NCBI GenBank assembly: GCA_010906935.1
Contig: JAAFHC010000009.1
Span: forward strand, 1-37,074
Source: Gelidibacter sp.
Lineage (GTDB): Bacteria; Bacteroidota; Bacteroidia; Flavobacteriales; Flavobacteriaceae
DNA: 37,074 nucleotides
Direction of reading: 5' to 3'
This document shows positions 18,357 through 37,074 of the stretch, in pieces. The notes beneath the pieces are model-generated. The model was not told the DNA's origin and ran no database searches. It saw nothing but the letters and a program-made list of their open reading frames with translations. How positions within the stretch are numbered: the first letter of the stretch is position 1; every line of letters begins with the position of its first letter. The position numbers and the translations under genes were made by a program.

Positions 18357-18364
18357 TACTTTTG
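18357..18364 (+). promoter_or_regulatory. -7 box for the lpxD-lpxC/fabZ-lpxA operon
   Basis: TACTTTTG matches TAnnTTTG and ends only six bases before the ATG at 18371, so the transcript would start at or next to the start codon. The upstream alternative start at 18362 lies inside this box and was rejected. Confidence 0.6.
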
Positions 18365-18370
18365 CATAAC

Positions 18371-19408
18371 ATGAAATTTACAGCAATTCAAATAGCAGAG
18401 ATTTTAGGAGGTGAAGTTTTCGGAAATGAAAATGTCGAAGTATTTACACTTTCCAAAATTGAAGAAGGAGAAGATGGATCACTAACATTCCTGTCGAATC
18501 CAAAATATACACCATATCTTTATTCAACAAAAGCTTCCATAGTGATTGTTAATAAAGACTTTGTGCCCGAAAAAGAACTTGAAACAACGATTATTAAGGT
18601 AAGTGATGCTTATCAGGCATTTTCTACATTGTTAGAGTTTTATGCCAAAGTAAAGTCGGAGAAATCGGGAATAGAAATACCATCTTATATTAATGAATCG
18701 GCTATTATTGGCACAAATTTATATTTAGGCGCGTTTTCTTATATCAGTTCACGTGTTTCTATTGGTGATAATGTGAAGATTTATCCGAATGTTTATGTTG
18801 GAGATAATGTAAAAATTGGCGATAATACGATTATTCATGCAGGTTCAAAAATTTATTCAGAAACAATAATTGGCGCTAATTGTACATTGCATGCCGGGGT
18901 AATTTTAGGTTCAGACGGATTTGGGTTTGCACCTAGTTCAGAAGGCATTTTCAGTAAAATACCTCAAATAGGCAATGTTATTATTGAAGACAACGTTGAT
19001 ATTGGCGCAGCAACAACTATAGACAGGGCAACATTAGGTTCAACCATAATCAGGAAGGGCGTAAAATTAGATAACCAAATTCAGATAGCGCACAATGTTG
19101 AAATTGGTGAAAACACTGTTATTGCCGCCCAAACTGGAGTGGCAGGTTCAACAAAAATTGGCGAAAATTGTATGATTGGCGGACAAGTGGGTATTGTTGG
19201 GCATATTACTATTGGGAATAATGTAAAAATACAGGCGCAGGCTGGTGTAGGAAGAAATATCAAAGATGATGAAATAATCCAAGGATCGCCAGCAATGGGT
19301 TATTCCGATTTTAATAAATCGTATGTCTATTTTAAAAAATTACCCGAATTGGTTTCCACTATAAATGCATTGGAAAAGGATATTAAAGCATTAAAAGAGA
19401 AAAAATGA
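18371..19408 (+). CDS. lpxD: UDP-3-O-(3-hydroxyacyl)glucosamine N-acyltransferase LpxD
   Basis: LpxD adds the second 3-hydroxyacyl chain to UDP-acyl-glucosamine, the third step of lipid A synthesis, using acyl-ACP. From ATG 18371 the protein has 345 residues, the usual size. The N-terminal uridine-binding domain (1-100) begins MKFTAIQIAEILGGEVFG. A left-handed beta helix of hexapeptide repeats ([IV]-G-x-x-x-x) follows from about residue 105. LDNQIQIAHNVEIGENTVIA contains the catalytic histidine. A C-terminal helix ends the protein. The stop overlaps the next start by four bases, and lpxC/fabZ and lpxA follow at once, so this is the first gene of the lipid A operon. Confidence 0.94.
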   Translation: MKFTAIQIAEILGGEVFGNENVEVFTLSKIEEGEDGSLTFLSNPKYTPYLYSTKASIVIVNKDFVPEKELETTIIKVSDAYQAFSTLLEFYAKVKSEKSGIEIPSYINESAIIGTNLYLGAFSYISSRVSIGDNVKIYPNVYVGDNVKIGDNTIIHAGSKIYSETIIGANCTLHAGVILGSDGFGFAPSSEGIFSKIPQIGNVIIEDNVDIGAATTIDRATLGSTIIRKGVKLDNQIQIAHNVEIGENTVIAAQTGVAGSTKIGENCMIGGQVGIVGHITIGNNVKIQAQAGVGRNIKDDEIIQGSPAMGYSDFNKSYVYFKKLPELVSTINALEKDIKALKEKK

Positions 19409-20802: not shown

Positions 20803-21584
20803 TGAATCAACCTTTAGCATATATACACCCACAGGCAAAAATCGCAACCAATGTAGTTGTTGAGCCTTTTACTACTATTCACAACAATGTAATTATTGGT
20901 TCCGGAACTTGGATTGGTTCAAATGTAACCATAATGGAAGGTGCTCGAATAGGCAAAAATTGCAGAATTTTTCCTGGAGCCGTTATTTCAGCCATTCCTC
21001 AAGATTTAAAATTTGAAGGAGAAGATTCATTGGCCATTATTGGTGACAACACTACAATTAGAGAATGTGTAACCGTAAATAGAGGCACAAAAGCACTCGG
21101 ACATACGAAAATTGGAGACAATTGTTTGATTATGGCGACTACGCATGTGGCGCATGATTGCATTATTGGAAACAATTGTATTTTGGCAAATGGTTCTATT
21201 ATTGCCGGGCACGTAACTATTGGCGATTATGCTATTTTAAGCGGATTGGTGGCTGTTCATCAGTTTATACATATTGGAGAACATTCCATGGTTTCGGGTG
21301 GTTCTTTGGTGCGAAAAGATGTTCCTCCTTTTTCTAAAGCCGGTAAAGAACCATTGTCTTATATTGGTATTAATTCGATTGGATTAAGAAGAAGAGGATT
21401 TGCAACAGATAAAATCAGGGAAATCCAGGATATTTATAGAATCTTATATCAAAAAAATTACAATACTACCCAGGCTTTAGAAAAAATTGAAGCTGAAATG
21501 GAAGCAACCAAAGAAAGAGACCAAATTATACTTTTCATTAAAAATTCTCAAAGAGGAATTATGAAAGGTTATACTGGCAGTTAA
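20802..21584 (+). CDS. lpxA: UDP-N-acetylglucosamine acyltransferase LpxA
   Basis: LpxA transfers a 3-hydroxyacyl chain from ACP to O3 of UDP-GlcNAc, the first lipid A step. The 260 residues consist of left-handed beta-helix hexapeptide repeats through residue 190, followed by a helical C-terminal domain with SYIGINSIGLRRRGF. The catalytic histidine is in ATTHVAHDCIIGNNC, and IAGHVTIGDYAILSG is a family hallmark. It begins on the last base of the lpxC/fabZ stop (TAATG), so all three lipid A genes form one tightly coupled operon. Confidence 0.96.
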   Translation: MNQPLAYIHPQAKIATNVVVEPFTTIHNNVIIGSGTWIGSNVTIMEGARIGKNCRIFPGAVISAIPQDLKFEGEDSLAIIGDNTTIRECVTVNRGTKALGHTKIGDNCLIMATTHVAHDCIIGNNCILANGSIIAGHVTIGDYAILSGLVAVHQFIHIGEHSMVSGGSLVRKDVPPFSKAGKEPLSYIGINSIGLRRRGFATDKIREIQDIYRILYQKNYNTTQALEKIEAEMEATKERDQIILFIKNSQRGIMKGYTGS

Positions 21585-21608
21585 TAATTAACAATTCAAC
21601 GATTTTTA

Positions 21609-21639
21609 CCTTGAGCGGAGTCGAAAGGAAACAAATAAA
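21609..21639 (-). repeat. Dispersed intergenic repeat, reversed copy
   Basis: Read on the minus strand this contains TTGTTTCCTTTCGACTCCG and a CTCAAGG end, matching the copies at 5044-5080 and 24899-24936. It lies between lpxA and efp and is followed by A/T-rich AAATAAAC-type units. Confidence 0.55.
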
Positions 21640-21670
21640 CAGTTAAACGAATAAACAAATAAATATATAA

Positions 21671-22237
21671 ATGGCCACAACATCAGATATTAGAAACGGA
21701 TTGTGTATTAGATACAATAATGATATTTTTAAAGTAATTGAATTTTTACACGTAAAACCGGGAAAAGGTCCGGCTTTTGTGCGTACAAAATTAAAAAGTT
21801 TATCATCTGGGAAGGTATTGGATAATACATTTCCGGCTGGAAGAAAAATTGAGGACATCAGAGTTGAAACCCAAAAATTTCAATTTTTGTATCCAGAAGG
21901 TGATTCATTTCATTTTATGAATACAGAAGATTATAACCAAATTACCTTGCAAAAAGATATATTGGATGCTCCTGAATTGTTAAAAGAAGGTGAAATTGTA
22001 ACCATTATTATCAATACTGAAGATAATTTACCATTGTCTGTTGACATGCCAATGAGTGTAATTTTAGAAGTTACCCACACAGAACAAGGCGTAAAAGGCA
22101 ACACAGCAACAAATGCAACAAAGCCTGCAACTGTTGAAACTGGCGCAACTATCAACGTTCCTTTGTTCATAAATGAAGGCGATAAAATTAAAGTTGATAC
22201 CGCAAAAGGAGCTTATTTAGAACGCGTTAAAGAATAA
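21671..22237 (+). CDS. efp: Translation elongation factor P
   Basis: EF-P rescues ribosomes stalled on proline runs. The 188 residues have the three-barrel layout: N-terminal KOW-like domain with VKPGKGPAFVRTKL, where Lys32 is at the loop tip that is modified in many bacteria; a middle OB domain; and the C-terminal OB domain ending INVPLFINEGDKIKVDT. No genes for known lysine-modifying enzymes are adjacent. It lies 86 bases after lpxA and is followed by a tiny ORF and the second LpxD-like gene, so the lipid A cluster is split by efp. Confidence 0.96.
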   Translation: MATTSDIRNGLCIRYNNDIFKVIEFLHVKPGKGPAFVRTKLKSLSSGKVLDNTFPAGRKIEDIRVETQKFQFLYPEGDSFHFMNTEDYNQITLQKDILDAPELLKEGEIVTIIINTEDNLPLSVDMPMSVILEVTHTEQGVKGNTATNATKPATVETGATINVPLFINEGDKIKVDTAKGAYLERVKE

Positions 22238-22241
22238 ACAG

Positions 22242-22325
22242 ATGAAACGAGCATTACAAATTTTGATACAAAAAGGAGTGATTATTGGCGAACAGCATCT
22301 GTTACCGCTTAAAAATAAAATTTAA
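22242..22325 (+). CDS. Possible 27-codon ORF between efp and the second lpxD-like gene
   Basis: ATG at 22242 to TAA at 22325 reads MKRALQILIQKGVIIGEQHL and seven more residues. It starts four bases after the efp stop and ends four bases before the next ATG. Both its start and the next start are preceded by the same AAACAG and followed by AAA. The tight fit and partly helical sequence suggest translation, perhaps as a coupling leader, but it is short enough to be chance. I do not recognise it. Confidence 0.3.
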   Translation: MKRALQILIQKGVIIGEQHLLPLKNKI

Positions 22326-22329
22326 ACAG

Positions 22330-23253
22330 ATGAAATTACCCCGTAAATATAAGTTGAAAGAAATTGCTGATATTATTGAGGCAAATTTTGTGGGACCTTC
22401 CGATTTTCCAATTTCTGGTTTTAATGAAATCCACGTGGTTGAAGAAGGTGATATTGTTTTTGTTGACCATCCTAAATATTACGACAAGGCGCTTCATTCA
22501 AAAGCTTCCGTTATTTTAATCAATAAAGAAGTGGAATGTCCACAAGGAAAAGCATTGCTGATTTCAGAAGACCCATTCACCGATTTTAACAAACTAACCA
22601 AATATTTTAATCCGTTTAAGGCTGTAAATTCATCAATTTCCGATTCGGCTATCATTGGTGAAAACACGATTATTCAACCAAATGTTTTTATAGGAAATAA
22701 TGTTAAAATCGGAGAGAATTGCCTTATTCATCCAAATGTTACCATTTACGATAATTGTGTTTTGGGAAATAATGTCACCATTCACGCCGGAACGGTTTTA
22801 GGTGCCGACGCTTTTTATTATAAAAAAAGACCAAGTGGATATGATAAATTGGTTTCGGGCGGTAGCGTAATTATAGAAGACAATGTTGATATAGGCGCAC
22901 TTTGTACCATCGACAGAGGTGTTTCTGCCAATACAACCATCAAAAAAGGCACAAAAATAGACAATCAAGTTCAGGTAGGTCACGATACCGTTATAGGCGA
23001 AAATTGCTTAATTGCTGCACAAACAGGAATTGCTGGATGCGTTATCATTGAAAATAATGTTACTTTATGGGGACAAGTTGGCACAACTAGTGGCATTACT
23101 ATTGGTGAAGGCGCTGTTGTACTTGGGCAAACAGGCGTAACAAAATCAATAAAAGGAGGCGTTTCTTATTTTGGAACCCCTGTAGAGGAATCAAGAATGA
23201 AATTGAAAGAAATGGCTGAAATTAAACAATTGCTGAAAAATCAAAAAAAATAA
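22330..23253 (+). CDS. Second LpxD-like acyltransferase
   Basis: A 307-residue paralogue of LpxD with the same plan: an N-terminal uridine-binding-like domain starting MKLPRKYKLKEIADIIEANF and hexapeptide repeats from about residue 110. The catalytic-type histidine lies in KIDNQVQVGHDTVIGENCLIA, aligned with IAHN in LpxD. It differs from the first LpxD by a loop with GADAFYYKKRPSGYDKL, a shorter C-terminus, and GH-D in place of AH-N. It may add a different acyl chain to lipid A or act on another nucleotide sugar; no substrate can be read from sequence. I place the start at ATG 22330 because the 15 residues upstream belong to the overlapping short ORF region. Confidence 0.85.
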   Translation: MKLPRKYKLKEIADIIEANFVGPSDFPISGFNEIHVVEEGDIVFVDHPKYYDKALHSKASVILINKEVECPQGKALLISEDPFTDFNKLTKYFNPFKAVNSSISDSAIIGENTIIQPNVFIGNNVKIGENCLIHPNVTIYDNCVLGNNVTIHAGTVLGADAFYYKKRPSGYDKLVSGGSVIIEDNVDIGALCTIDRGVSANTTIKKGTKIDNQVQVGHDTVIGENCLIAAQTGIAGCVIIENNVTLWGQVGTTSGITIGEGAVVLGQTGVTKSIKGGVSYFGTPVEESRMKLKEMAEIKQLLKNQKK

Positions 23254-26263: not shown

Positions 26264-29200
26264 ATGAATCTATTGATTAAAAAAATAGCTGTACTTTTAA
26301 TTGTTTGGAATGTTCTTCCATTAAAAAGCCTTGCCCAAGATATCCGATTTAAACACCTGACCATTAACGACGGATTGTCTCAAAATCTTGTTTTATCTAT
26401 ATCCCAGGATAGGGAAGGTTTTATGTGGTTCGGAACCAAAGATGGGTTGAATAAATATGACGGATACAAATTTACAATTTTTCAAAATGAACCCAATAAT
26501 CCAAATTCAATTTCATCCAATAATATAAATACGCTGTTTACGGATATACATGGAAAATTATGGATTGGCACCGAAGAGGGAATTGTCAATATTTATAATA
26601 ATGCTACGCAATCATTCCAAAGAATTTTACTCCCAATACCAAATTCAAAAAATAAAAATGATGCAGTTATTAATGCTTTTGCGCAAGGTAAAACAGGTGA
26701 TATTTGGATTGGCACAATTGGCAATGGTCTTTTTAAGGTTCCATTTGAGAATCAAAAATACATTTTAAATAAATTAAAACAATATAAAAATGACACTTCA
26801 AAAAATAATCAACTTTGCAGTAACATCATAAAAAAAATATTGATTGATGAAGAAGGCATTATTTGGATTGGAACCGATAAAGGCTTGAACAGAATGGATC
26901 CAAAAACCGAATTGATTTCGTCTTTCTATTTTGATATAAAACACCCAAATGCTCCTGGAAGTGATACTGATTTTTCCATTTCTGCCATTGCTAAAGCTGA
27001 TGACAATAATTTATGGTTAGGCACCCGAAGCGGACTTGTTAAATTTAATACCATAAACAATTCATTTAAAGTATTTCCGCATCATTTGAACATTTTTAGA
27101 TATGGCTGGGGAGAAATTAATGAAATTACACAAGACAAACAAGGTGATTTATGGCTGGCAACACCCGGAGAATTAATGCGATTTAATACCAAAATATTAA
27201 AATTTGAGTCTGTAAAAAACGACCCTTTAAAACCAGAATCAATTAGTTATAACAGTATTTCAAGTTTGTTTTTAGATCAAACAAATATTATGTGGATTGG
27301 TACAAGTGGAATGGGAATCGATTATTACGATCCAAAAGCCAATAGGTTTGGGTTGTTAAAACGAAAAAACACTAGTAATTCAAGAGTCACAGGTTTCAGT
27401 ATTCGATCTGTTTTAGAAGAAAGTGAACGATATGTATGGATTAGTGCGGAAGTGCTTTATCGTTGGGATCGAAAAACCGGTGAACTTAAAAGTTTTGAAA
27501 CAAGCTCAATTAATCTGAATGCCTTTGGCAATACAAACATTCGGTCTATGATTAAATCCGAAGATGGAAAATTGTGGTTTGCATCAACGGAAGGATTGTT
27601 TGTTTACAATCCGAAAAATGAAAATGCACTACAATTTAAATATGACCCTAAAAATCCCAAAGGAATTCCATATAAAGGGGTTTCCAGTGTTTTTGAAGAT
27701 AAAAACGGCATTATTTGGATAGTTACTGAAAACGTGCTGAGTAAAATGACAAATAGGGGAAAAGGAGAATTTAAACATTATAAATTATCCAACAATCCGA
27801 AGAATAATTTCACAAATCGCTGTGTTATTTATGAAGACGACAAAAACCAATTGTGGTTGGGAACCAAAAACGGTTTGCTGGTTTTTGATAAAAACAAAGA
27901 ACTCTTTTACAGTTATCAAAATAATCCTAAAATACCTAACAGCTTAAGCAATAATCAAGTAAATGCCATATTCCCAGATCCTGTAAAGCCTGAAAGTTTT
28001 TTGTGGATAGGCACTTCTGGCGGGTTAAATTTATTTGATATCAATAAACAGTCATTTATTCATTTCACTCAAAAAGATGGATTGCCAAACAATGTCATCT
28101 ATGGAATTTCTTCAGATTCCCAGGATAACCTGTGGTTAAGCACCAATAATGGAATTTCAAAATACAACTTAAAAACAAAAGAATTCAGAAATTATGATGT
28201 GGAAGATGGCTTGCAAAGCAATGAATTTAATACGGGTGCTGTTTTTAAAGGCTCAAAAGGGGAATTGTTTTTTGGTGGCATTAACGGGTTAAATTACTTC
28301 TTTCCCGATCAAATTAATAACAATCCGTTTCAGCCTTCAATGGGTATTACAGGTATAAAAGTGTACAGACAAAGTAAAAAAAAGAATGAGATTGCAGAAA
28401 TAAACGAAATACCCATCAATCAAAACGAAAACATCACTTTTTCGCCACGTGATGAAATCATTATTTTTGAGTTTGCCGCATTGGATTTTTCATCGCCAGC
28501 CAAAAATAAATATGCTTATAGGCTTGAAAATTTTAATGAAAATTGGATTTATTTAGGCAATACACGAACTGCAACATTTACCCATTTGCCGTCGGGAAAT
28601 TATACCTTAAAAGTGAAAGGCAGTAACAATGACGGTGTATGGAATGAGGAGGGAATTTCCATTCCGTTTAGGGTTTTGCCGCATTGGTCTGGTACTTGGA
28701 TGGCTGTCACCATTTATTTATTACTTTTTCTATTGCTGCTCTATTTTATAAGAAGTTATGAAATGAAGCGAATTAAGATGAAAAACGATTTGGAACTCGA
28801 ACAAAAAGAGTACAATACTTTGAAGGTTTTAGACCAATTAAAATCGCGTTTTTTCGCCAATATTTCCCATGAATTTAGAACGCCGTTAACATTAATTAGC
28901 GGTTATGCCGAAAACTTAATGGAAGCGTTGCCATCAAATTATATAAAAAAGCAAGCAGAAGGCGTTGATCAAAATGCGAAAACACTTTTAAAATTGATCA
29001 ATGAATTGCTGGATATTTCCAAATTGGAAGCAGGAAAGATGAACTTAAAACTTTCTCAGCAAAATATAGTTTTATTTCTCAAAAATCTATTCTTTTCCGT
29101 AGAGTCCTTTTCAGAAAAAAGACAAATTTCTTTAAATTTTGTTTCCGATGAAACGGATATTCAAGCGGTTTTTGATGAGGAGAAAATGGAAAAAATCATC

Positions 29201-30400
29201 ATGAATATTGTGTCAAATGCTTTAAAATTCACACCAGAAAACGGAGAAATCACCTTAACAATCCAACAAAATAATAATGAACGCCTTACCATCTGTATTT
29301 GCGATACCGGAATTGGTATTGAAGAAGAAGCCATTGCTAACATTTTTGACCGATTCTATCAGGCAGACAATTCAGACACCCGTTTGTATGAGGGAACCGG
29401 CATTGGCCTGACCTTGGTAAAAGAATTGGTTGAATTGCATGATGGAACCGTAAAAGTTTTCAGAAATGAAGATTTAACCGGACAAAAAGGAACGACTTTT
29501 TCTATAGATATTCCAATTGGCACTGTTTCTGAAATAATGAGTGAATCTGTGATTGAAATAAAAACCCAAACACCTTCAGGTTTAAAGCACAATCAAAATA
29601 ATAAGCTGCAAATACCCGAAATAAACTTCGATAAAAAAATCATAGTATTGGTGGAAGATAATTTGGCTATTCGAACTTTTATCAAAAATATATTACAACC
29701 AACCTACAAAGTTATTGAAGCTTCTAATGGTGAAGAAGGATTTGAACAAGCTAAAAAAGCAATTCCTGATGTTATTATTACTGATGTAATGATGCCAAAA
29801 ATCGATGGAATTTCCATGGTACACCTGTTAAGAAATGAGGAAAAAACCAGTCATATTCCTATTGTGATTTTAACAGGGAAAGCCGCTCACGAAGATAGGC
29901 TTTCGGGATTGGAAACCGGTATTGAAGCGTATTTAACAAAGCCATTTAGCGTAAAAGAACTTCAAATAATCATCAATAATATCATTCAACAAAGAGAACA
30001 ACTTCTTAAAAAATATCAAAATAAATTCGTGGTTGCTTCCGATGAAATTCCGATGGCATCCGTTGACCAACAGTTTTTGGAAAAGGCCATTCAACACATA
30101 AAGAATCATATAGAAAACACCAGTTTTGGTGTGGAGCAACTCGCGGATAAAATGTGTTTAAGTCCATCACAATTACACAGAAAACTTCAGGCGCTTATTG
30201 ATCAGGCACCTGGTCAATTAATCCGTAATATTCGATTGCAACTAGCTGCAGATTTAATCAAAAAAAATGCAGGGAATTTGGCTGACATTTGCTTTCAGAC
30301 AGGATTTAATGATCAGACTTATTTTTCAAGAGCTTTTAAAAACCAATTTGGCTGCAGCCCGAGTGCCTATAAAAAGGACAATACAGCTCGCTTATCATAG
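26264..30400 (+). CDS. Hybrid two-component system sensor/regulator (HTCS) with AraC output
   Basis: A one-protein signalling system of 1378 residues. Signal peptide ends at about Ala24 (LKSLA-QD). The periplasmic sensor (25-720) is built of two-component propeller repeats, recurring as [IL]-W-[IL]-G-T plus G-L-N-x-[FY/M]-D (for example LWIGTEEGIVNIYN). A Y_Y_Y domain follows (about 722-800), then one membrane helix (808-832). The HisKA domain has His869 in RFFANISHEFRTPLT, and the ATPase domain has NALKFTP, DTGIGI and GTGIGLTLVKEL. The receiver (about 1124-1240) has E1131, D1132, phospho-acceptor D1174 and K1226. The AraC helix-turn-helix is at about 1275-1375. All catalytic residues are intact. 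HTCS proteins usually activate adjacent polysaccharide loci; here the downstream genes are unlike those, so the ligand is unknown. Confidence 0.95.
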   Translation: MNLLIKKIAVLLIVWNVLPLKSLAQDIRFKHLTINDGLSQNLVLSISQDREGFMWFGTKDGLNKYDGYKFTIFQNEPNNPNSISSNNINTLFTDIHGKLWIGTEEGIVNIYNNATQSFQRILLPIPNSKNKNDAVINAFAQGKTGDIWIGTIGNGLFKVPFENQKYILNKLKQYKNDTSKNNQLCSNIIKKILIDEEGIIWIGTDKGLNRMDPKTELISSFYFDIKHPNAPGSDTDFSISAIAKADDNNLWLGTRSGLVKFNTINNSFKVFPHHLNIFRYGWGEINEITQDKQGDLWLATPGELMRFNTKILKFESVKNDPLKPESISYNSISSLFLDQTNIMWIGTSGMGIDYYDPKANRFGLLKRKNTSNSRVTGFSIRSVLEESERYVWISAEVLYRWDRKTGELKSFETSSINLNAFGNTNIRSMIKSEDGKLWFASTEGLFVYNPKNENALQFKYDPKNPKGIPYKGVSSVFEDKNGIIWIVTENVLSKMTNRGKGEFKHYKLSNNPKNNFTNRCVIYEDDKNQLWLGTKNGLLVFDKNKELFYSYQNNPKIPNSLSNNQVNAIFPDPVKPESFLWIGTSGGLNLFDINKQSFIHFTQKDGLPNNVIYGISSDSQDNLWLSTNNGISKYNLKTKEFRNYDVEDGLQSNEFNTGAVFKGSKGELFFGGINGLNYFFPDQINNNPFQPSMGITGIKVYRQSKKKNEIAEINEIPINQNENITFSPRDEIIIFEFAALDFSSPAKNKYAYRLENFNENWIYLGNTRTATFTHLPSGNYTLKVKGSNNDGVWNEEGISIPFRVLPHWSGTWMAVTIYLLLFLLLLYFIRSYEMKRIKMKNDLELEQKEYNTLKVLDQLKSRFFANISHEFRTPLTLISGYAENLMEALPSNYIKKQAEGVDQNAKTLLKLINELLDISKLEAGKMNLKLSQQNIVLFLKNLFFSVESFSEKRQISLNFVSDETDIQAVFDEEKMEKIIMNIVSNALKFTPENGEITLTIQQNNNERLTICICDTGIGIEEEAIANIFDRFYQADNSDTRLYEGTGIGLTLVKELVELHDGTVKVFRNEDLTGQKGTTFSIDIPIGTVSEIMSESVIEIKTQTPSGLKHNQNNKLQIPEINFDKKIIVLVEDNLAIRTFIKNILQPTYKVIEASNGEEGFEQAKKAIPDVIITDVMMPKIDGISMVHLLRNEEKTSHIPIVILTGKAAHEDRLSGLETGIEAYLTKPFSVKELQIIINNIIQQREQLLKKYQNKFVVASDEIPMASVDQQFLEKAIQHIKNHIENTSFGVEQLADKMCLSPSQLHRKLQALIDQAPGQLIRNIRLQLAADLIKKNAGNLADICFQTGFNDQTYFSRAFKNQFGCSPSAYKKDNTARLS

Positions 30401-30446
30401 CAAAAACTCAGCATTAATTTCCAAATCACATTTTTTCATATTTAAA

Positions 30447-30489
30447 CCATTCCTTTTGCCATAAAAGTCCATGTTTTTGCGATAATTGT
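30447..30489 (+). promoter_or_regulatory. Tandem direct repeat, candidate HTCS operator
   Basis: Two abutting units (30447-30468 and 30469-30489) share CCAT, then TTTTGC, then ATAA, then GT, with a few differences. The 21-22 bp period is two DNA helical turns, as expected for direct half-sites bound by AraC-type domains. They lie about 26 bases upstream of the -7 box at 30515-30522, where an activator would act. The binding role is inferred. Confidence 0.5.
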
Positions 30490-30514
30490 GCAAATTTTTT
30501 TGAAGTTAACCGTT

Positions 30515-30522
30515 TAGTTTTG
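30515..30522 (+). promoter_or_regulatory. -7 box for the secreted-protein operon
   Basis: TAGTTTTG matches TAnnTTTG, 30 bases before the ATG at 30553. No TTTG at -33 with normal spacing is seen, which fits a promoter that needs an activator. Confidence 0.45.
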
Positions 30523-30552
30523 GAGCATCTAACCAATTAAATTATCAAAATC

Positions 30553-31275
30553 ATGAGAAAATTATTATTCCTTGTCGTGTTTATTCCAATGTTGGCCATA
30601 TCACAAAATGATGGCAGCAAACTATTAAACATGAGCGAGATTACTGTTAAAGAAGGCCACGAATCGCAATTTATTGCAGGCGTAAAAATGTGGAAAGAGT
30701 GTTATTTGGAAAAAAAGGGAACCGACAAATTTAATGTATGGAGGCGTGTTCAAGGCGAGGGAATTATGTATGTTTTAACTGGCTTAATGGAAAATTGGGC
30801 TGAAATGGACAAAGAAGATGCGGCAGGAAAAGAATGTCGAATGAAAGTGATTGAACTGATTATGCCCCATGTAGAAAAAGTAAATTACAACATTGCCCGT
30901 ACGATGCCGGAAGTGGGCAGTACAACTCCTGCGGAAGGCACAAAATTAGTTTGGGTTTCTTTCTTTAGGACGACTAACGGCACCCTTTTTAATGAGGCAG
31001 TTAAAGAAATGTCTTCAACACTGAAATCAGTTGAAGGTGCCGCTAGAGGAACTTGGTACTCATTTAATGGAGGTGGACCAGATGCTCCGGAATATATGGT
31101 TTCAACACCTTACAAAGGCTTTGCAGATTTAGATATCAAAAGAGAAGGCGTCTGGAAAATCTATGAAAATAAACATGGGAAGAAAAAAACAGATGAATTG
31201 AGGGCGAAATTCAGAGCGTCTCTTGAAAATTCCTGGGCCTATTTATATTCTTTGAATGAAGATTTAAGCAATTAA
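30553..31275 (+). CDS. Secreted protein with two ferredoxin-like (dimeric alpha/beta-barrel) halves
   Basis: Function unknown. Signal peptide MRKLLFLVVFIPMLAISQ is followed by about 222 exported residues with no lipobox. The mature protein looks like two copies of a ferredoxin-like unit, as in monooxygenase-type (ABM) or EthD-like dimeric alpha/beta barrels. Half one has a strand MSEITVKEG, a helix through FIAGVKMWKECYLEK, and strands NVWRRVQGEGIMYVLTGLM. Half two has KLVWVSFFRT, FNEAVKEMSSTLKS and GTWYSFNGGGPDAPEYMVST. A single chain with both halves could form one barrel by itself. It is the first gene after the HTCS and lies 17 bases before the next gene. The fold is my reading of the pattern, not a proven match. 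Confidence 0.72.
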   Translation: MRKLLFLVVFIPMLAISQNDGSKLLNMSEITVKEGHESQFIAGVKMWKECYLEKKGTDKFNVWRRVQGEGIMYVLTGLMENWAEMDKEDAAGKECRMKVIELIMPHVEKVNYNIARTMPEVGSTTPAEGTKLVWVSFFRTTNGTLFNEAVKEMSSTLKSVEGAARGTWYSFNGGGPDAPEYMVSTPYKGFADLDIKREGVWKIYENKHGKKKTDELRAKFRASLENSWAYLYSLNEDLSN

Positions 31276-31292
31276 ACTAAAAAACCAAACTT

Positions 31293-32057
31293 ATGAAAAC
31301 ATTAAATACAACATTGTTACTGGCAATAACACTTTTACTGACACCAATAATTTCAAATGCACAAGGCAATCAAGCATATTGGATTCATGAAGACCAAGTA
31401 AAACCATCTAAAACTGGTGAATATGAAAAAGTTTCCAAAGATTTTATTGAAGCCTGTAAAAAACATGATTTAAAAGACGCAGATTGGGTTACCGCCCAAA
31501 TGGATGATGGCACCTACTTAACGCTTACAGCCATACAAAATATGTCCGATTTGGATAAAAATTCATTGGCGCCATTAGCGGAAAAAATGGGGAATGAAAA
31601 TTTTAGAGCAATTTTTGAACGCTTTAATAAATGCTATGACAAGCATGGTGACTATGTTTTGGTATTAAACAGTGACCTTTCTTATATGCCAACTGGGCTT
31701 ACCATTAATACTGAAGGCAAAAATTATCGTAAATATCATTTTTTATATGTAACGCCAGAAAATGTACAAAATTTAAGAGGAAAAATTAAAGAGCTAAAAG
31801 CACTTTATGAGAAAAAGGGAGCAAAGGAACACTTTAGAATTTATCGCGCCGGATTTGGAACTATGGGCGATTATTTCTTAGCTGTAGTATCAGCCAAAGA
31901 TGCTCAGGACTATGCCAGACAAAGTGATGAAAATGATGTTATATTAGGTGAAGACGGGAAAAAACTATTTGAAGATATGTTTAAATACGTAGAGAAATAT
32001 GAAAGCAAAACAGGAGGCATGCGTCCAGATTTATCATATTCTGCATCAAAAAAATAA
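31293..32057 (+). CDS. Second secreted protein with two ferredoxin-like halves
   Basis: Function unknown. Signal peptide MKTLNTTLLLAITLLLTPII to SNAQG is followed by about 230 residues. The same two-part plan as the gene before it is visible: half one begins AYWIHEDQVKPSKTGEYEKV and has a predicted helix KDFIEACKKH, then strands DWVTAQMDDGTYLTLTAI; half two begins YHFLYVTPENVQNLRGKI and has HFRIYRAGFGTMGDYFLAVV. The two proteins are not close in sequence but share order of elements and size. The 17-base gap indicates one transcript with the upstream gene. A strong hairpin follows in the next gap. No catalytic motif is recognised. Confidence 0.72.
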   Translation: MKTLNTTLLLAITLLLTPIISNAQGNQAYWIHEDQVKPSKTGEYEKVSKDFIEACKKHDLKDADWVTAQMDDGTYLTLTAIQNMSDLDKNSLAPLAEKMGNENFRAIFERFNKCYDKHGDYVLVLNSDLSYMPTGLTINTEGKNYRKYHFLYVTPENVQNLRGKIKELKALYEKKGAKEHFRIYRAGFGTMGDYFLAVVSAKDAQDYARQSDENDVILGEDGKKLFEDMFKYVEKYESKTGGMRPDLSYSASKK

Positions 32058-32082
32058 TCAACTATTAGCTACTAACTAAGCC

Positions 32083-32121
32083 AAATTCGGGTATGATTTT
32101 ATTGTTGTCATGCCCGGATTT
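32083..32121 (+). other. Intercistronic hairpin
   Basis: Bases 32083-32096 pair with 32108-32121 as a 14-bp stem with two G:U wobbles and an 11-base loop. An A-tract, not a T-tract, follows on the plus strand, so it looks like an mRNA processing or stability element rather than a classic terminator. It lies 15 bases upstream of the lipoprotein start. Confidence 0.65.
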
Positions 32122-32136
32122 AAAAAATCAAATCTT

Positions 32137-32658
32137 ATGAAAAAAATAATGCTCATTGTGATTATAATTGCAACAATAACTGCTTGTAAAAATGAAGTCC
32201 GTTATACACAAAATTCACCAGAGATAGAGACCTATAAAAAGGTAATTACAGCTTATGAAATGGGGAGTTGGGAATCCATGGTAATTCATTATTCCGATAC
32301 TGCCAAAATTTTAAATAATGTTAATAAAAAAAATGCGCAAACCGTTGCGCAATTAGTGGCCCAAAACAAACAAGATGCTGCTATTTTTTCGTCATGGAAA
32401 TATGTCCCTGAAGAATCCGAATATGAAATGGTTGTTACAGATAAACAAGAAACTTGGGTTAATTTTTGGGGATTGTGGCAGGGAAGGCTTACGTTAAATA
32501 ACCAATTGTATGAAATTCCCGTTCATATTACAGCCCGATTTATAGATGGAAAAATTGTAAGAGAAGTTGGCTATTGGGATATTTCTGCCATAGCGCTGGA
32601 TCTGCAGCAACTTAAGGAAGACGCTCCGCCGGAAGCTATAATGGAAACAAAGGAATAA
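32137..32658 (+). CDS. NTF2/SnoaL-like lipoprotein, first of a pair
   Basis: A 173-residue lipoprotein from ATG 32137 (an upstream ATG at 32110 lies in the hairpin and leaves the signal peptide displaced). The lipobox is TITAC with Cys17. The mature part begins KNEVRYTQNSPEIETYKK and has a helical start followed by a strand-rich core (ETWVNFWGLWQGRL, EIPVHITARFIDGKIVREVGYWD) typical of NTF2/SnoaL-like cones. It is a clear paralogue of the gene at 33441, sharing RYTQ-x-SPEIE-x-YK, ETWVNFWG and GYWD. It probably sits on the periplasmic or outer leaflet and binds a small ligand; no catalytic residue is clear. Its 3' end abuts the remnant frame at 32642. Confidence 0.78.
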   Translation: MKKIMLIVIIIATITACKNEVRYTQNSPEIETYKKVITAYEMGSWESMVIHYSDTAKILNNVNKKNAQTVAQLVAQNKQDAAIFSSWKYVPEESEYEMVVTDKQETWVNFWGLWQGRLTLNNQLYEIPVHITARFIDGKIVREVGYWDISAIALDLQQLKEDAPPEAIMETKE

Positions 32659-32881
32659 TCAAAATGAAAGTGTTTATAGAGTCGCTACCACAAATGGTTT
32701 ACACGCCAAAAACTATTTAATAAGTAGTGAAAGTTATCCTGTTTCTGATGTTTCATTGATGTTAAACAACCAAGAGCCAAAAAATAAATCAAGAATTATT
32801 TACGGCAACCAATTGGCAAAAAAAGATTTGGGTATCAAATTTAAACCTGCCATTGAGCCTTTGCAGGCGTATAATTCTTGA
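32642..32881 (+). pseudogene. Remnant of a lost gene (C-terminal fragment)
   Basis: A frame free of stops for 79 codons ends in TGA at 32881 and reads like real protein: from VYRVATTNGLHAKNYLISSE through SRIIYGNQLAKKDLGIKFKP to AYNS. It has no usable start, opens inside the end of the lipoprotein gene in another frame, and has coding-like codon use. It is best explained as the 3' end of a gene whose front was deleted. I do not recognise the family. The alternative is chance, as the region is only moderately long. Confidence 0.5.
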
Positions 32882-32911
32882 AAAAACAGATTAATTTAAA
32901 ATCTATTTATC

Positions 32912-33388
32912 ATGAAAAATTTAAAAACATACTTAGCACTCTTTATTTTATTTGTTTCAATAAGTGCAGCTTTCAGCCAGGAAAAGGAAAAATTTTTAGA
33001 CAAGTCTTTTGCCTATAATTCTGTGGATCCGCATTATTGGGACGAACCAGATTATTGGCCGGCAAAATTAGATGCTGTTATTGCAGCACCAAAGAACCAT
33101 AAAATATTAATGGAAAACGATCAAGTGCGCGTTTTGGAAGTTACGCTTGCTCCAGGTGAAACAGAAGAAGTTCATCATCATCGCTGGCCTAGTGTGCTTT
33201 ACATTCAGGAAGCGGGAGATTTTATAGATTATGATTCAGAAGGAAATATTATATTGGATACCCGGCAATTAAAAACGCCTCTTACTTTTCCTATGACTAT
33301 GTGGAAAGACCCAGAAGCGCCTCATTCCGTCGAAAATTTAAGCAAAACCAAACCCATTCGCCTTATTAGGGTGGAGATTAAAAATTAA
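32912..33388 (+). CDS. Secreted cupin-domain protein
   Basis: A 158-residue exported protein with signal peptide MKNLKTYLALFILFVSISAA to FSQ. The mature part is a single small beta-barrel cupin. Motif 1 is near GETEEVHHHRWPSV, giving the likely metal ligands His88 and His90. Motif 2 is PEAPHSVEN (His138, Asn142), matching H-x-x-x-N. Cupins of this kind bind a metal and may be dioxygenases, isomerases or simple binders; activity cannot be read here. It lies between the two paralogous lipoproteins in the same direction, preceded by the gene remnant. An ATTTAAAATC-like A-rich leader precedes the ATG. Confidence 0.82.
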   Translation: MKNLKTYLALFILFVSISAAFSQEKEKFLDKSFAYNSVDPHYWDEPDYWPAKLDAVIAAPKNHKILMENDQVRVLEVTLAPGETEEVHHHRWPSVLYIQEAGDFIDYDSEGNIILDTRQLKTPLTFPMTMWKDPEAPHSVENLSKTKPIRLIRVEIKN

Positions 33389-33440
33389 ATGATTACCAAA
33401 ACATTATACAACCAGTTTACTAACTTAAAAATTTAAAATC

Positions 33441-33953
33441 ATGAAAAAACTAATTTTACTCGCATTCGTCATTATTCTTTATTCAGCTTGTAAAGAACAA
33501 CCAATTAGATATACGCAATCTTCACCCGAGATTGAAGCGTATAAAGCAGGAATAAAAGATTATAGCGACCAAAAATGGGAATCTTTGGTGACTCGTTATG
33601 CGGATACCGCAAATGTGTTTTTTAATACCGCCACAGCAATGAGAGCCAATAAAATACCGGAATTTCATCAAAATAACGAAACGGCATTTTCTTCAAGAGG
33701 ATTTATTGAAAAAGGTCAGGAATATGAAATGGTAATCACAGATAACGGAGAAACCTGGGTAAATTTTTGGGGAACCTGGAAATGTACATTGGCGGCCAAT
33801 AACAAAGTTCTTGAAATCCCTGTTCATTTAACGGCACAATTTATTGATGGTAAAGTTGTAAGAGAATACGGGTATTGGGACAATGCACCTATTGTTTTGG
33901 CAATTCAAGAAATTGAAGCCGCCCCAAAAATGACCGAAGAAGCTACAGAATAG
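33441..33953 (+). CDS. NTF2/SnoaL-like lipoprotein, second of a pair
   Basis: A 170-residue lipoprotein with lipobox YSAC and Cys17. It is a paralogue of the gene at 32137: both have the mature start [E/Q]-x-x-I/V-RYTQ-x-SPEIE, a middle EYEMV[IV]TD, ETWVNFWG-x-W, the segment LEIPVHLTAQFIDGKVVREY and GYWD. The fold is probably the NTF2-like cone with a hydrophobic pocket lined by these Trp and Tyr residues. The two copies flank the cupin, suggesting duplication and insertion, or loss of what lay between. It is followed by the glycine-zipper gene after 58 bases. Confidence 0.78.
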   Translation: MKKLILLAFVIILYSACKEQPIRYTQSSPEIEAYKAGIKDYSDQKWESLVTRYADTANVFFNTATAMRANKIPEFHQNNETAFSSRGFIEKGQEYEMVITDNGETWVNFWGTWKCTLAANNKVLEIPVHLTAQFIDGKVVREYGYWDNAPIVLAIQEIEAAPKMTEEATE

Positions 33954-34011
33954 TAATCGTAAAAACTTTTGTTTATAATGTTGAATTATCTATAAATTTA
34001 AATAATATATT

Positions 34012-34494
34012 ATGAAAAATTTAATTTTTGCAATCACTTTGATTTTAAGCATTAATATTTATTCTCAAAATCGATTCGAAAAAACGAAGGCCTTTGTACG
34101 AGTATACGATTTACAAGGTAAAAAGATAGGAAAAGGAAAAATACTTTCAATTTCAGATACATCACTTCAATTAAACAGAAAAGTAGCATCTGCGGAAATT
34201 CCTGTAAATAGCATCGGCTCAATTAAAACAAAACGTTCTGCAGGACACAATGTCCTTAAAGGTGCGGTAATCGGTGCTTCAACAATGGCAATTTTAGGAG
34301 CCGCTACAGCCAACCCAGATGATTGGTTTTTAGCTTATTCAGCAGGTGAAGGAGTAGCCGTGGGAGCTGTTTTTGGAGGAGCTGGAGGAGCAGCAATTGG
34401 AGGAATTACTATTCTTTTTAAAAATTCTAAATCTTATGAAATAAATGGAGATCTTAAAAAATGGAAAGCATTTAATGAAATTATTATTAAATAA
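34012..34494 (+). CDS. Secreted glycine-zipper protein
   Basis: A 160-residue exported protein of unknown function. Signal peptide MKNLIFAITLILSINIYSQ ends before a small beta-rich domain (30-75: VRVYDLQGKKIGKGKILSIS, SLQLNRKVASAEIPVNSIGS). Two Gly/Ala-rich hydrophobic segments follow, VLKGAVIGASTMAILGAATA (about 81-100) and GEGVAVGAVFGGAGGAAIGG (112-131), spaced as glycine zippers that insert in or line membranes. The C-terminus is soluble. Such proteins are common in Bacteroidota envelopes. It may stabilise the outer membrane or associate with the neighbouring lipoproteins. Confidence 0.75.
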   Translation: MKNLIFAITLILSINIYSQNRFEKTKAFVRVYDLQGKKIGKGKILSISDTSLQLNRKVASAEIPVNSIGSIKTKRSAGHNVLKGAVIGASTMAILGAATANPDDWFLAYSAGEGVAVGAVFGGAGGAAIGGITILFKNSKSYEINGDLKKWKAFNEIIIK

Positions 34495-34502
34495 TTAACA
34501 AT

Positions 34503-34535
34503 AAACCTAGAGGCAATTAGGCCATCTTGGGTTTT
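34503..34535 (+). terminator. Weak hairpin with short T-tract
   Basis: AAACC pairs with GGTTT, then AGA with TCT, then GGC with GCC, with an internal loop and a bulge, followed by TTTT. It lies after the glycine-zipper gene and could be a partial terminator. The stem is imperfect. Confidence 0.3.
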
Positions 34536-34599
34536 ATCAAAAAATTAAATCCATTTTAAAACATTGTATTGCCGAGTATTAACTTTTAAAATTAAAATT

Positions 34600-35382
34600 A
34601 TGAAAAAATTACTAATGCTTATCGCAATAATATTTTTAGGCAACAGTGTTGTTGCACAGGATAAACTTTATTTAATGTTCGAATTCATAAAAGTGGACAA
34701 TGAGCAGGAACAAGCCTATATGGAAACGGAATCATTTTGGGAAAAATTACATGAACAAAGAGTTAAAAATGGCGATATTATAGAATGGGACTTATGGAGT
34801 TTGCAACCTGGCGGTGAAGAACAAGGATTTCAATACTTAACCGTAACGCTTTATAATGATCCTATAAAAATGATGAGCGGTGCAGGAAATTTTGAAGTAG
34901 CCCTAAAAGCAGCTTATCCAAAAATGTCTGAGGAAGAAATTAATAAAAAATTTATGGCCACCTCAAAATCGAGAGACCTGGCAGTACGTGTTTATTTGGA
35001 ACACATAGCTGCCACAAAAGACAATTTTCAGATGCCTCTAGGCACCATAGCAGGAATAAATTTGATGAAAGTATCTGATGAAAATTATGAGAATTATGAA
35101 AAATTTGAAACAGAAATTTTTCAGCCTATAGCCCAAAAAGAGGTAGATGCCGGAGTTAGGGGAAATTGGGGTTTGATGCGTTATATGCTGCCAACAGGAA
35201 GCGACGTTTATGCAACACATATAACTGCAGATATGTACAAAGATTATAATCAATTATTTAATGGAGGTTCTGTAAGCGGACCTGAATTGTCTGAAGCCCA
35301 AATTAAAAAAATCCAGGATGGAATGACTACACGTGATATGAAATATAAATATATGGCTACACTCATAAAAAAAGTGCGTTAA
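34600..35382 (+). CDS. Third secreted protein with two ferredoxin-like halves
   Basis: Function unknown. From ATG 34600 it has 260 residues with signal peptide MKKLLMLIAIIFLGNSVVAQ; the longer frame upstream has no signal-peptide logic. Half one starts KLYLMFEFIKVDNEQEQAYM with strands GFQYLTVTLYND; half two starts GTIAGINLMKVSDENYENYE, with GNWGLMRYMLPTGSDVYATH. This repeats the layout of the genes at 30553 and 31293: strand-helix-strand-strand with a large hydrophobic pocket, twice. An insertion of about 30 residues between the halves (KMSEEEINKKFMATSKSRDL) is unique to this one. It lies at the start of a second sub-cluster, before the long inverted repeat at 35412. Confidence 0.7.
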   Translation: MKKLLMLIAIIFLGNSVVAQDKLYLMFEFIKVDNEQEQAYMETESFWEKLHEQRVKNGDIIEWDLWSLQPGGEEQGFQYLTVTLYNDPIKMMSGAGNFEVALKAAYPKMSEEEINKKFMATSKSRDLAVRVYLEHIAATKDNFQMPLGTIAGINLMKVSDENYENYEKFETEIFQPIAQKEVDAGVRGNWGLMRYMLPTGSDVYATHITADMYKDYNQLFNGGSVSGPELSEAQIKKIQDGMTTRDMKYKYMATLIKKVR

Positions 35383-35411
35383 AAAATATCAAAATAAACA
35401 CAGTTAATCCT

Positions 35412-35466
35412 GAAATTCCTAAAAATAGAATGCACATGAAGTCCCCAATTCTTTTTTAGGAATTTC
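35412..35466 (+). repeat. Perfect 14-bp inverted repeat
   Basis: GAAATTCCTAAAAA at 35412-35425 pairs exactly with TTTTTAGGAATTTC at 35453-35466 across a 27-base loop. It lies between the gene at 34600 and the double-domain lipoprotein. It may be an operator, a terminator-like structure or a processing site. Confidence 0.7.
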
Positions 35467-35560
35467 TTTATAAAAAGGCATATTGTATTCAAAAACTGAA
35501 TTATAAATGAAAATTACGATCGTGAAAAAACAATTTAAAACTATCTTAAAATTTAAACCA

Positions 35561-36442
35561 ATGAAGAATTCAATTCAACTCTTACTTTTTTCAATTGTAA
35601 TATTTTTAACATCCTGTGACATTCTTAATGCACAAATTAAAAAAGACATTAAAATGTACACTGCTACCTGGGATGAAATTATAAATAAAGGGAATTTAGA
35701 TTTATTCAACGAAACGAACTTCGATAAGGATATTACTTTAGTGATGAGTCCTGAAAATATTGTTGGCATTGAGAATGTTAAAGCATTTTATGCCAATTAT
35801 GTCAACGGATTTTCAAATATTGAATTCACCATTTCAGATGTTTTTGGACAGGGTGATAAAATTGTCAAACATTGGAAATTTAAAGGAAAACATACAGGCG
35901 ATTTTTTCGGAATTCCGGCAACAGAAAAGTCGGTTGATTTAGATGGAGTCACTTTAGTCAAAATGAAAAACGGGAAAATTGCTCAGGAACAAGATTTTAT
36001 GGATAATATGCTATTTATGCAACAACTGGGTTTGGTATCTTCTCAGGAAAATATAGGTATTGTTGATAGATTATATAAAGCATTTGCGATGGGTGATATT
36101 CCTTCGGTTCTTGGCGCTATGGATACCAAGGTTGTATGGAACGAGGCTGAAGGGAATGTTTATGCTGATGGAAATCCATATATAGGACCGGATGCTGTTT
36201 TAAATGGTGTTTTTGCACGTATTGGAGCAGAACATGAATATTTCAATTTGGTAGATATCTTGCTGCACGAAATGTCTAATAACCAAGTACTCGCTACGTT
36301 ACGGTACAATGGCAAATTAAAAAAGAATGGAGCCATCTTCGATGCCCAGGTGGCTCACCTTTGGAGTTTGAAAGACGGCAAAGTGATAGGTTTTCAGCAA
36401 TATGTAGATACCAAACAGCTTGCTGATGCTATCAAAAAATAA
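35561..36442 (+). CDS. Lipoprotein with two SnoaL/NTF2-like domains
   Basis: A 293-residue lipoprotein from ATG 35561 with lipobox LTSC (Cys19); an upstream in-frame start at 35507 would bury the signal peptide. Domain one (about 30-165) follows the ester cyclase-like SnoaL pattern: FYANYVNGFSNIEFTISDVF, then GDKIVKHWKFKGKHTGDFFG and KMKNGKIAQEQDFMDN. Domain two (about 170-290) is a general SnoaL-like NTF2 domain: IVDRLYKAFAMGDIPSVLGA, VVWNEAEGN, AQVAHLWSLKDGKVIGFQQY. Two different SnoaL types in one lipoprotein is uncommon. It is the first gene of a tight group with the two genes after it. Catalysis is not certain; these domains also serve as binders. Confidence 0.82.
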   Translation: MKNSIQLLLFSIVIFLTSCDILNAQIKKDIKMYTATWDEIINKGNLDLFNETNFDKDITLVMSPENIVGIENVKAFYANYVNGFSNIEFTISDVFGQGDKIVKHWKFKGKHTGDFFGIPATEKSVDLDGVTLVKMKNGKIAQEQDFMDNMLFMQQLGLVSSQENIGIVDRLYKAFAMGDIPSVLGAMDTKVVWNEAEGNVYADGNPYIGPDAVLNGVFARIGAEHEYFNLVDILLHEMSNNQVLATLRYNGKLKKNGAIFDAQVAHLWSLKDGKVIGFQQYVDTKQLADAIKK

Positions 36443-36471
36443 ATAACCATCATTCAATAAAAAAAAACAAT

Positions 36472-36819
36472 ATGAAAACTATTAGAATTTACTTCGTAAT
36501 TCCATTATTATTTCTTTTTATTGTTAATGTAAGAAGTCAGGACAGTGAAAAATCAGTCAATTCATCATTTGATTATAAAATAGTCAATACATACGATTAT
36601 GTTTATGGACAAGGTTATAAAGTAACTAAACACTGGGTATTTAAAGATAGCGATACGGACTATCTTTTTGATATTCTGCCAAAGGTTAAATATGAAACTA
36701 AAATAGTCAATACATCCAATTATATTTATGGACAAGGATATAAAGTAACTAAGTACCGTGTGTTTAAGGGTAGTGACGCGGACTATCTTTTTGATATTTT
36801 ACCAAAGTTAAAGATGTAA
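36472..36819 (+). CDS. Small secreted protein of two 41-residue repeats
   Basis: A 115-residue exported protein of unknown function. After the signal peptide (MKTIRIYFVIPLLFLFIVNV to RSQ) it consists of two copies of a 41-residue unit: KIVNT at residue 36 and again at 77, then YGQGYKVTK, VFK and DYLFDILPK. Each unit resembles residues 93-123 of the lipoprotein encoded just upstream (DVFGQGDKIVKHWKFKG, then DFFGIP). It therefore seems to have arisen from a fragment of a SnoaL domain that was duplicated. The start is 30 bases after the previous stop and ten bases before the dipeptidase start, so it is in the same operon. It cannot form a full NTF2 cone alone and may form beta-hairpin assemblies. 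Confidence 0.72.
   Translation: MKTIRIYFVIPLLFLFIVNVRSQDSEKSVNSSFDYKIVNTYDYVYGQGYKVTKHWVFKDSDTDYLFDILPKVKYETKIVNTSNYIYGQGYKVTKYRVFKGSDADYLFDILPKLKM
36577..36816 (+). repeat. Tandem 123-bp coding repeat
   Basis: Units at 36577-36699 and 36700-36816 (the second slightly shorter) encode the two 41-residue copies. They share long identical DNA stretches such as GACTATCTTTTTGATATT, showing a recent duplication. Confidence 0.85.
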
Positions 36820-36829
36820 CAAAACGAAT

Positions 36830-37074
36830 TTGAAAACAAAAATCATAATTATCAGCATACTATTTGTACAGCAACTCGTTGCACAATCTTATCAGAAAAT
36901 TCACGATAAAGCAATTTTGGTAGATACGCACAACGATTTCCTAAGCAAAACAACAGATTATGGATTTGTCTTCGACACTGATTTAAGCGGAAAAACGCAT
37001 TCTGATTTGGCAAGGTTAAATAAAGGAGGAGTTGATGTTCAGCTCTTTTCGGTGTTTTGCGACGGCGATAAAAA
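36830..37074 (+). CDS. Membrane dipeptidase (peptidase M19-like), N-terminal part
   Basis: The window ends inside this gene after 81 codons. A TTG start at 36830 gives MKTKIIIISILFVQQLVAQ, a signal peptide, then SYQKIHDKAILVDTHNDFL. The D-T-H-N-D motif carries the first zinc ligands (H-x-D) of M19 renal-dipeptidase-like enzymes, which cleave dipeptides at a two-zinc site. SGKTHSDLARLNKGGVDVQLFSVF then matches the next family strand and helix (residues 54-77). It begins ten bases after the small repeat protein, so it belongs to the same operon. No ATG is available nearby, which supports the TTG start. The rest of the enzyme cannot be judged. Confidence 0.8.
   Translation, partial: MKTKIIIISILFVQQLVAQSYQKIHDKAILVDTHNDFLSKTTDYGFVFDTDLSGKTHSDLARLNKGGVDVQLFSVFCDGDK

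Follow-up and report, generated by a model that had tools for sequence, protein, structure and literature searches.

A recurring pair of exported DABB-like and NTF2/SnoaL-like protein families, encoded in Gelidibacter sp. behind a hybrid two-component regulator

Polysaccharide utilization loci (PULs) controlled by hybrid two-component system (HTCS) regulators, in which the regulator gene immediately precedes an operon for exported proteins on the same strand, are among the described systems closest to the locus presented here, a group of genes on a stretch of 37,074 nucleotides from Gelidibacter sp. (the window, which is the entire contig JAAFHC010000009.1, or C190, of a genome of 3.3 Mb in 296 contigs). 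The others resemble its products by fold: ABM/DABB proteins with a tandem ferredoxin-like barrel, such as the anthrone oxidase-like 5f9p, PenE (9kdp), 3mcs, 3f44, and 2pgc; chlorite dismutase and HemQ, heme DABB proteins in which a proximal His is the heme ligand; and the SnoaL-type polyketide/ester cyclases and uncharacterised NTF2 proteins. In the window, one HTCS gene is followed by ten genes (A to J) for exported proteins that include relatives of these folds, and two of their families, the DABB-like protein B and the NTF2 lipoproteins, form a core that recurs in several chromosomal places. The constant part of the gene set consists of two exported pocket-forming folds, often signal-controlled, and the variable part of small-molecule enzymes, carriers, acyltransferases, and peptidases. 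Since the two folds often bind small molecules and commonly adjoin a sensor-regulator, the set probably serves to detect some extracellular small molecule and to handle it. No description of the set was found among the top-ranked open-licence PMC papers.

The HTCS gene (1378 aa, positions 26264–30400, + strand) precedes ten open reading frames (ORFs) on the same strand, at a distance of 152 bp from A, with intergenic gaps of 10 to 253 bp among A to J (the widest between C and D); the layout given in the initial annotation was confirmed by ORFs, translations, and Pfam, the tenth gene (J) being cut by the contig end. All ten products carry an export signal, as had been proposed: a signal peptide ending before Gln is seen in the translations of A, B, D, F, G, I, and J, and a lipobox Cys in those of C, E, and H (LYSAC in E). 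A simple export predictor also found a signal in 10/10, although it did not call E a lipoprotein. In the alignments of A, B, G, and D, the Gln after the signal peptide never varies, which fits the Q-rule of Bacteroidetes (PMC5837995).

Proteins A (30553–31275) and B (31293–32057) can be confidently assigned, on the basis of their predicted structures, to the tandem DABB (ABM-like) fold. Both models (A, pLDDT 91.7 and pTM 0.84 from 49 sequences; B, pLDDT 87.1 and pTM 0.80 from 14 sequences) contain two ferredoxin-like repeats, and Foldseek searches against the PDB gave for A and B alike the same leading group (5f9p, 3mcs, 3f44, 2pgc, and PenE), matched over nearly the whole length with TM scores of about 0.45–0.62 and identities of about 8–14%. 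The profiles of A and B match each other (95.8%, E 8e-9) and that of A matches G (34600–35382, with the ORF listed from a TTG at 34564; 82.4%, E 1e-5), the comparison of B with G being not significant (12.7%). Of the three two-part ferredoxin-like proteins proposed initially, A and B are therefore supported by predicted structures and Foldseek, and G, a probable tandem DABB protein remotely related to A, by its profile match to A only; relatives of G are present at two regulator loci (L147 and L164). Unlike 5f9p, PenE, and similar proteins, A and B are exported, and neither they nor G passed the cut-off of any Pfam or NCBIfam model, including that of the ABM family. A TSC22 match of B was disregarded, as were further weak Pfam hits. 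Chlorite dismutase and HemQ, which also appear in the Foldseek lists, share the fold class of A and B, but none of the 13 columns that are invariant in the alignment of A holds a His, and A has no evident counterpart of the heme ligand. Cys50 and Cys95 are invariant in A, at positions that may be compatible with a disulfide, and His32 is invariant in the alignment of B.

Among the NTF2/SnoaL-like proteins, H (35561–36442, ORF listed from 35507) matches the Pfam family SnoaL (PF07366) with 97.2 bits (cut-off 28.4, E 7.9e-28). Profile searches relate its first half to the cyclases 3kkg, 8ysb, and IdmH 6hnn (3e-11 to 1e-9) and its second half to the NTF2 proteins 3grd and 3ec9 (2e-28 and 5e-18). 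C (32137–32658, ORF listed from 32110) and its paralogue E (33441–33953; 44% identity) fall below the Pfam SnoaL cut-off, C with 15.8 bits and E with no match, but their joint profile matches that of H at 99.6%, and in this way the claim of three NTF2/SnoaL-like lipoproteins holds. In contrast to SnoaL-type cyclases, H is a two-domain lipoprotein, and C and E are lipoproteins with a single divergent domain. The start sites of C, G, and H are probably those used here (32137, 34600, and 35561) rather than those of the ORF listing.

The conservation of these families was followed in 249 genomes of the family, 296 of the phylum, and 38 of the genus (all counts include the own genome). A was detected in 24 of the family genomes (E ≤ 1e-3; the match was strong in 20) and in eight of the phylum genomes, and B in 78 and 10, respectively, as well as in nine of the genus genomes, one copy having internal stop codons. 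Profile matches to the NTF2 lipoprotein were found in 101 of the family genomes. Families as widespread as B and the NTF2 lipoprotein are found in a locus in which A, B, and G escape all Pfam and NCBIfam cut-offs. Of 85 B places, a few of which are fragments of one gene, 60 have a same-strand NTF2 lipoprotein gene no more than 3 kb away (in 57 of the 78 genomes with B), and in 45 of the 60 the two genes are at most 300 bp apart. B and the NTF2 lipoprotein co-occur in 66 of the 249 genomes (Fisher p 3e-22, not corrected for relatedness). Seven of 19 fetched B loci (L139–L142, L145, L146, and L154) consist of one or two NTF2 genes plus B in one shared housekeeping context, and the remaining ones are in other places, several with a kinase and a regulator. 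Because NTF2 and B stand alone in the former and are found elsewhere in the latter, they constitute the core of the gene set.

For the regulators beside this core we have examined 81 A loci (the window and 80 named ones, several of them shortened by contig ends). Within 8.5 kb of A there is an NTF2/SnoaL gene in 56 and a sensor or regulator gene in 52, the latter belonging to several overlapping types: TPR-kinases (32 loci), LytTR regulators (30), HTCS or related propeller kinases with Reg_prop, Y_Y_Y, and HisKA_3 domains (24), and LuxR-type regulators (7). A regulator is found within two genes for 50 of 82 A genes, and a further one of the 82 is at a contig edge. The LytTR orthologue is present once per genome in 50 of the 249 family genomes (E ≤ 1e-60), and in 39 of these A, B, or NTF2 is no more than 6 kb away from it. 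Among 20 fetched LytTR loci (the 11 misses and nine others), looser profiles revealed relatives of the DABB or NTF2 proteins at a distance of up to 8 kb in 17, including eight of the misses, which gives 47 of 50 if the two different criteria are combined. In 12 genomes chosen for having the cluster, the best LytTR match was always the cluster copy (54–100% identity), and the next paralogue had at most 35%. A conserved neighbourhood, whose absence had been set beforehand as a reason to abandon the initial annotation, is thus present, both for LytTR and for B with NTF2. The part of that annotation that made the HTCS a member of the set stands for the window but does not extend to all lineages, where a TPR-kinase with LytTR or a propeller kinase with a LuxR-type regulator may take its place; in keeping with its HTCS, the own genome has no LytTR orthologue at E ≤ 1e-60. 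Within the genus of the window the regulator type also varies, with L155 (G047:C58) carrying the TPR-kinase/LytTR version of the cluster. In L158 and L161, lipoproteins beside the kinase pair (L158:11853–13516 and L161:12737–13513) were considered as DABB candidates and rejected, as no DABB profile matched them; by eye they are SH3-type-like.

The HTCS of the window has, after a signal peptide, the architecture known from PUL regulators: a propeller of 11 Reg_prop stretches, Y_Y_Y, HisKA, HATPase_c, Response_reg, and HTH_18, all of which score over their Pfam cut-offs. Its receiver carries a SHIP motif, and PMC11253607 describes an S/CHIP receiver motif for most of the HTCSs studied there. Unlike in a PUL, no SusD gene is present on the contig (all 10 matches in the genome are on other contigs) and no glycoside hydrolase was found among the scanned products A to I; unlike in HTCS-controlled PULs, the same protein families adjoin other regulator classes in other lineages. 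No ORF after the HTCS in the window, which ends within J, is long enough for SusC, a family that was not searched for itself. The statement that SusC/SusD genes are missing here is therefore upheld as regards SusD on the contig.

The intergenic stretch between HTCS and A is conserved (mean column identity of 86% across seven Lutibacter-like loci) and contains two copies, 21 bp apart, of a 16-bp half-site, TTTGCnATAAnnGTnC (30455–30491), followed by the element TAGTTTTG (30515–30522), which has the pattern of the -7 promoter consensus TAnnTTTG; a -33 element was not found upstream of A with the pattern used. The direct-repeat pattern was derived from these seven loci, so that their matches are by construction. 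In the own genome it has a single match at ≤3 mismatches, with none for the reversed control, and at ≤4 mismatches it is confined to the Lutibacter group among all named or later-fetched loci. It was also detected in two genus genomes outside the pattern set, before A in L133 and before B in L135. The repeat is absent from L050, where an assembly gap of NN removes the HTCS–A stretch, and from L132, whose best mismatch equals that of L050 and which is probably the same assembly. It is likewise absent from L134 and L136, in which B is present and A undetected, and twelve loci outside the Lutibacter group share no direct repeat upstream of A (L099 has an unrelated one there, above its shuffles). 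The genus relative L135/L137 (G259:C14) retains the repeat before a B gene with internal stops, A being undetected. As the repeat is unique in the genome, the HTCS probably controls one promoter and serves the A to J operon alone, presumably by binding to the repeat, which we regard as its candidate operator. A regulatory link between HTCS and operon, as initially suggested, thus appears likely from conservation and the genome-wide pattern search. If this control is true, the range of HTCS regulators extends to a locus lacking SusD. Handles for the study of the locus are a single candidate operator, one promoter, and the two protein families of the core.

The closest relatives of A are found in eight loci (79–84% identity over the best segment), five of them named Lutibacter and three with other or broader names, which suggests that the genome of the window is Lutibacter-like. 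L050, L051, and L053 (all Lutibacter sp.) keep HTCS, A, B, C, cupin, E, G, and H in this order, with an extra RidA lipoprotein after the cupin in L050 and L051; L049 has no B or G before its contig end and L055 is divergent after C. Between H and an M19 dipeptidase gene, the three conserved loci encode a DUF4440/SnoaL lipoprotein and a glyoxalase-fold protein, to which L051 and L053 add a cytochrome c lipoprotein and L050 a 323-aa ORF. After the M19 gene they continue with an MFS carrier and an alpha/beta-hydrolase. In the window, the place of the DUF4440/SnoaL, glyoxalase-fold, and cytochrome c genes is occupied by I (36472–36819), a short exported protein that, like F, has no counterpart in L050, L051, and L053. 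I had been described as a repeat protein; the repeat is real, and two BLASTP matches to H of 25–29 residues each (4e-6) revise its identity to two copies of a SnoaL fragment. J (36830–37074, with a TTG start) is the beginning of an M19-type dipeptidase, as proposed, judged from its homologue in L053 (L053:16733–17914; Peptidase_M19, 2.1e-108). For the cupin-like D (32912–33388) and the glycine-zipper-like F (34012–34494) the expected families were matched, both below the Pfam cut-offs, D with 16.8 bits to Cupin_2 (E 0.0055, cut-off 27.2) and F with 0.0058 to Gly-zipper_YMGG. D has His88, His90, and His138 kept in six of six aligned sequences, and these may bind a metal.

From these results we lean towards seeing the gene set as a module of the envelope, induced by a signal, whose proteins bind a small hydrophobic or carbonyl compound and probably convert it. 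The HTCS would sense a compound or condition outside the cytoplasm, become phosphorylated, and bind the 21-bp direct repeat before A, switching the operon on. In the envelope, the tandem DABB proteins A, B, and G would provide an enclosed barrel pocket, and the membrane-anchored lipoproteins C, E, and H would act beside them, so that together they could bind a small compound of hydrophobic, aromatic, or reactive carbonyl type and would probably change it by isomerisation, cyclisation, or oxidation. Further steps might be taken by the cupin and, in relatives, by RidA, glyoxalase-fold proteins, cytochrome c, cytoplasmic SDR, MDR, or epimerase-type dehydrogenases, and an O-methyltransferase, and the products might be cleaved or imported with the help of the M19 dipeptidase and, in relatives, of the MFS carrier and alpha/beta-hydrolase encoded after it. 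The pathway, the substrate class, and catalysis are what we infer, and the small-molecule enzyme families in the loci of relatives are in support. The initial annotation, which spoke of a regulated extracytoplasmic small-molecule pathway, is in this respect a reasonable conjecture.

Several observations weigh against such a module. The accessory genes vary strongly: near A, in the 81 loci, we found MFS carriers (25), HGSNAT-type acyltransferases (23), DUF418 (19), epimerase-type SDR (15), RidA (13), SDR (13), an SGNH-like protein (12), MBOAT (10), Tricorn (10), YfcC-type proteins (8), amidohydrolases (7), MDR (6), amino acid (AA) permeases (6), and FIST (6). Some of them, MBOAT with the SGNH-like protein, HGSNAT-type acyltransferases, peptidases, and the amino-acid permease, suggest acylation of the surface or utilization of peptides instead of aromatic chemistry. 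There is no regulator within 8.5 kb of A in 29 of the 81 loci, nor within two genes for 31 of the 82 A genes, and in some lineages one or two NTF2 genes accompany B with no adjoining regulator, the seven B loci in the housekeeping context lacking both regulator and accessory genes. B has no NTF2 gene within 3 kb at 25 of its 85 places, and three of the 20 fetched LytTR loci (L158, L159, and L161, all among the misses) are without DABB or NTF2. DABB and NTF2 folds also have non-catalytic roles.

In another reading the locus would serve nutrient acquisition, with a regulator sensing a peptide or acylated amino compound, exported proteins helping in its capture, and M19, amidohydrolase, Tricorn, MFS, AA permease, YfcC-type, and short-chain fatty acid (SCFA) transporters making use of it. 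We consider this unlikely, even though the window has the start of an M19 gene, genes for M19, MFS, and alpha/beta-hydrolase are consecutive in the three Lutibacter loci, Tricorn, YfcC-type, amidohydrolase, and AA permease genes recur near A in the numbers given above, and L089 has an SCFA transporter. These genes belong to the variable part, DABB and NTF2 being found without them in the seven housekeeping-context loci, and SusD is absent from the contig (TonB-type receptors were not searched).

A further reading, to be taken as speculative, is that the exported DABB protein and the NTF2 lipoprotein form a new heteromeric envelope complex with two tasks, the conversion of a small molecule and the presentation of this molecule or of its product to the adjoining sensor, which would explain why the same two families are accompanied by at least three regulator architectures (HTCS, TPR-kinase with LytTR, and propeller kinase with LuxR-type regulator). 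Less likely still is an envelope-stress response, in which sequestering or protective proteins would be induced by membrane or oxidative damage and surface O-acylation by MBOAT and the SGNH-like protein would be one output in some genera. The glycine-zipper-like, glyoxalase-fold, cytochrome c, and RidA families are suggestive of it, together with the MBOAT and SGNH-like genes near A, but the unique direct repeat makes the HTCS seem a one-operon regulator, unlike that of a general stress regulon. An oxygen-using pathway with A and B as true ABM-type monooxygenases outside the cytoplasm is improbable. In its favour are the nearest folds, which include 5f9p, PenE, and the putative monooxygenases 3mcs and 3f44, and a PF00115 (COX1) match in 10 of 10 A-bearing metagenome-assembled genomes (MAGs) named Bacteroidales, Lentimicrobium, Sphingobacteriia, or just Bacteroidetes, which may indicate that these organisms meet oxygen. 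Against it are the TM scores and identities given above and the lack of any Pfam or NCBIfam match over its cut-off; PF00115 also includes NO reductases. The same 10 of 10 matches defeated the argument that A, being found in anaerobes, could not use oxygen, and the envelope module we favour allows an oxygen-dependent step.

Among the accessory genes, the RidA copies carry a signal or lipobox in seven of 18 cases and none in 11 (some genomes being counted twice), so that close RidA relatives occur in either compartment. They match the Ribonuc_L-PSP HMM, and their alignment has Ser or Thr at what we take to be the place of the substrate-binding Arg. RidA-family lipoproteins were seen at L045:10122–10640, L050:6902–7411, and L051:12628–13137, with relatives in other genera lacking a signal. 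Further finds were an O-methyltransferase in L150, a PaiB-like FMN protein in L149, and an AHSA1-fold protein in L056. Family K19, tried as a two-domain SnoaL, was rejected, being an NAD-dependent epimerase/SDR. Two or three tandem FIST genes follow the A cluster in several Bacteroidales/Bacteroidetes MAGs (L102:16085–17224 and onwards, L099, L107, L112, and L124), adjoining a histidine kinase in L112 and a member of that kinase's family in L102. At L041:9758–13279 and similar places, MBOAT is preceded by up to three copies of a protein of 345 aa with no Pfam match; by eye we take this protein to be SGNH-like, and its pairing with MBOAT is presumably akin to that of polysaccharide O-acetylation pairs.

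Upstream of the HTCS, the window contains, in order, sucD, a TlpA-like gene, and a divergent gene. Elsewhere in it, two LpxD-like hexapeptide acyltransferase genes of the same family K52 (18362–19408 and 22285–23253) are about 3 kb apart, with an LpxC-FabZ-like fusion and an LpxA-like gene between them, the Lpx names in 18362–23253 being our presumed assignments. A response-regulator protein (15520–17067) presumably resembles PorX of type IX secretion, and at 6387–7598 there is an exported protein of 403 aa whose C-terminal half has tandem repeats with a high content of Asn, Arg, Ser, and Thr.

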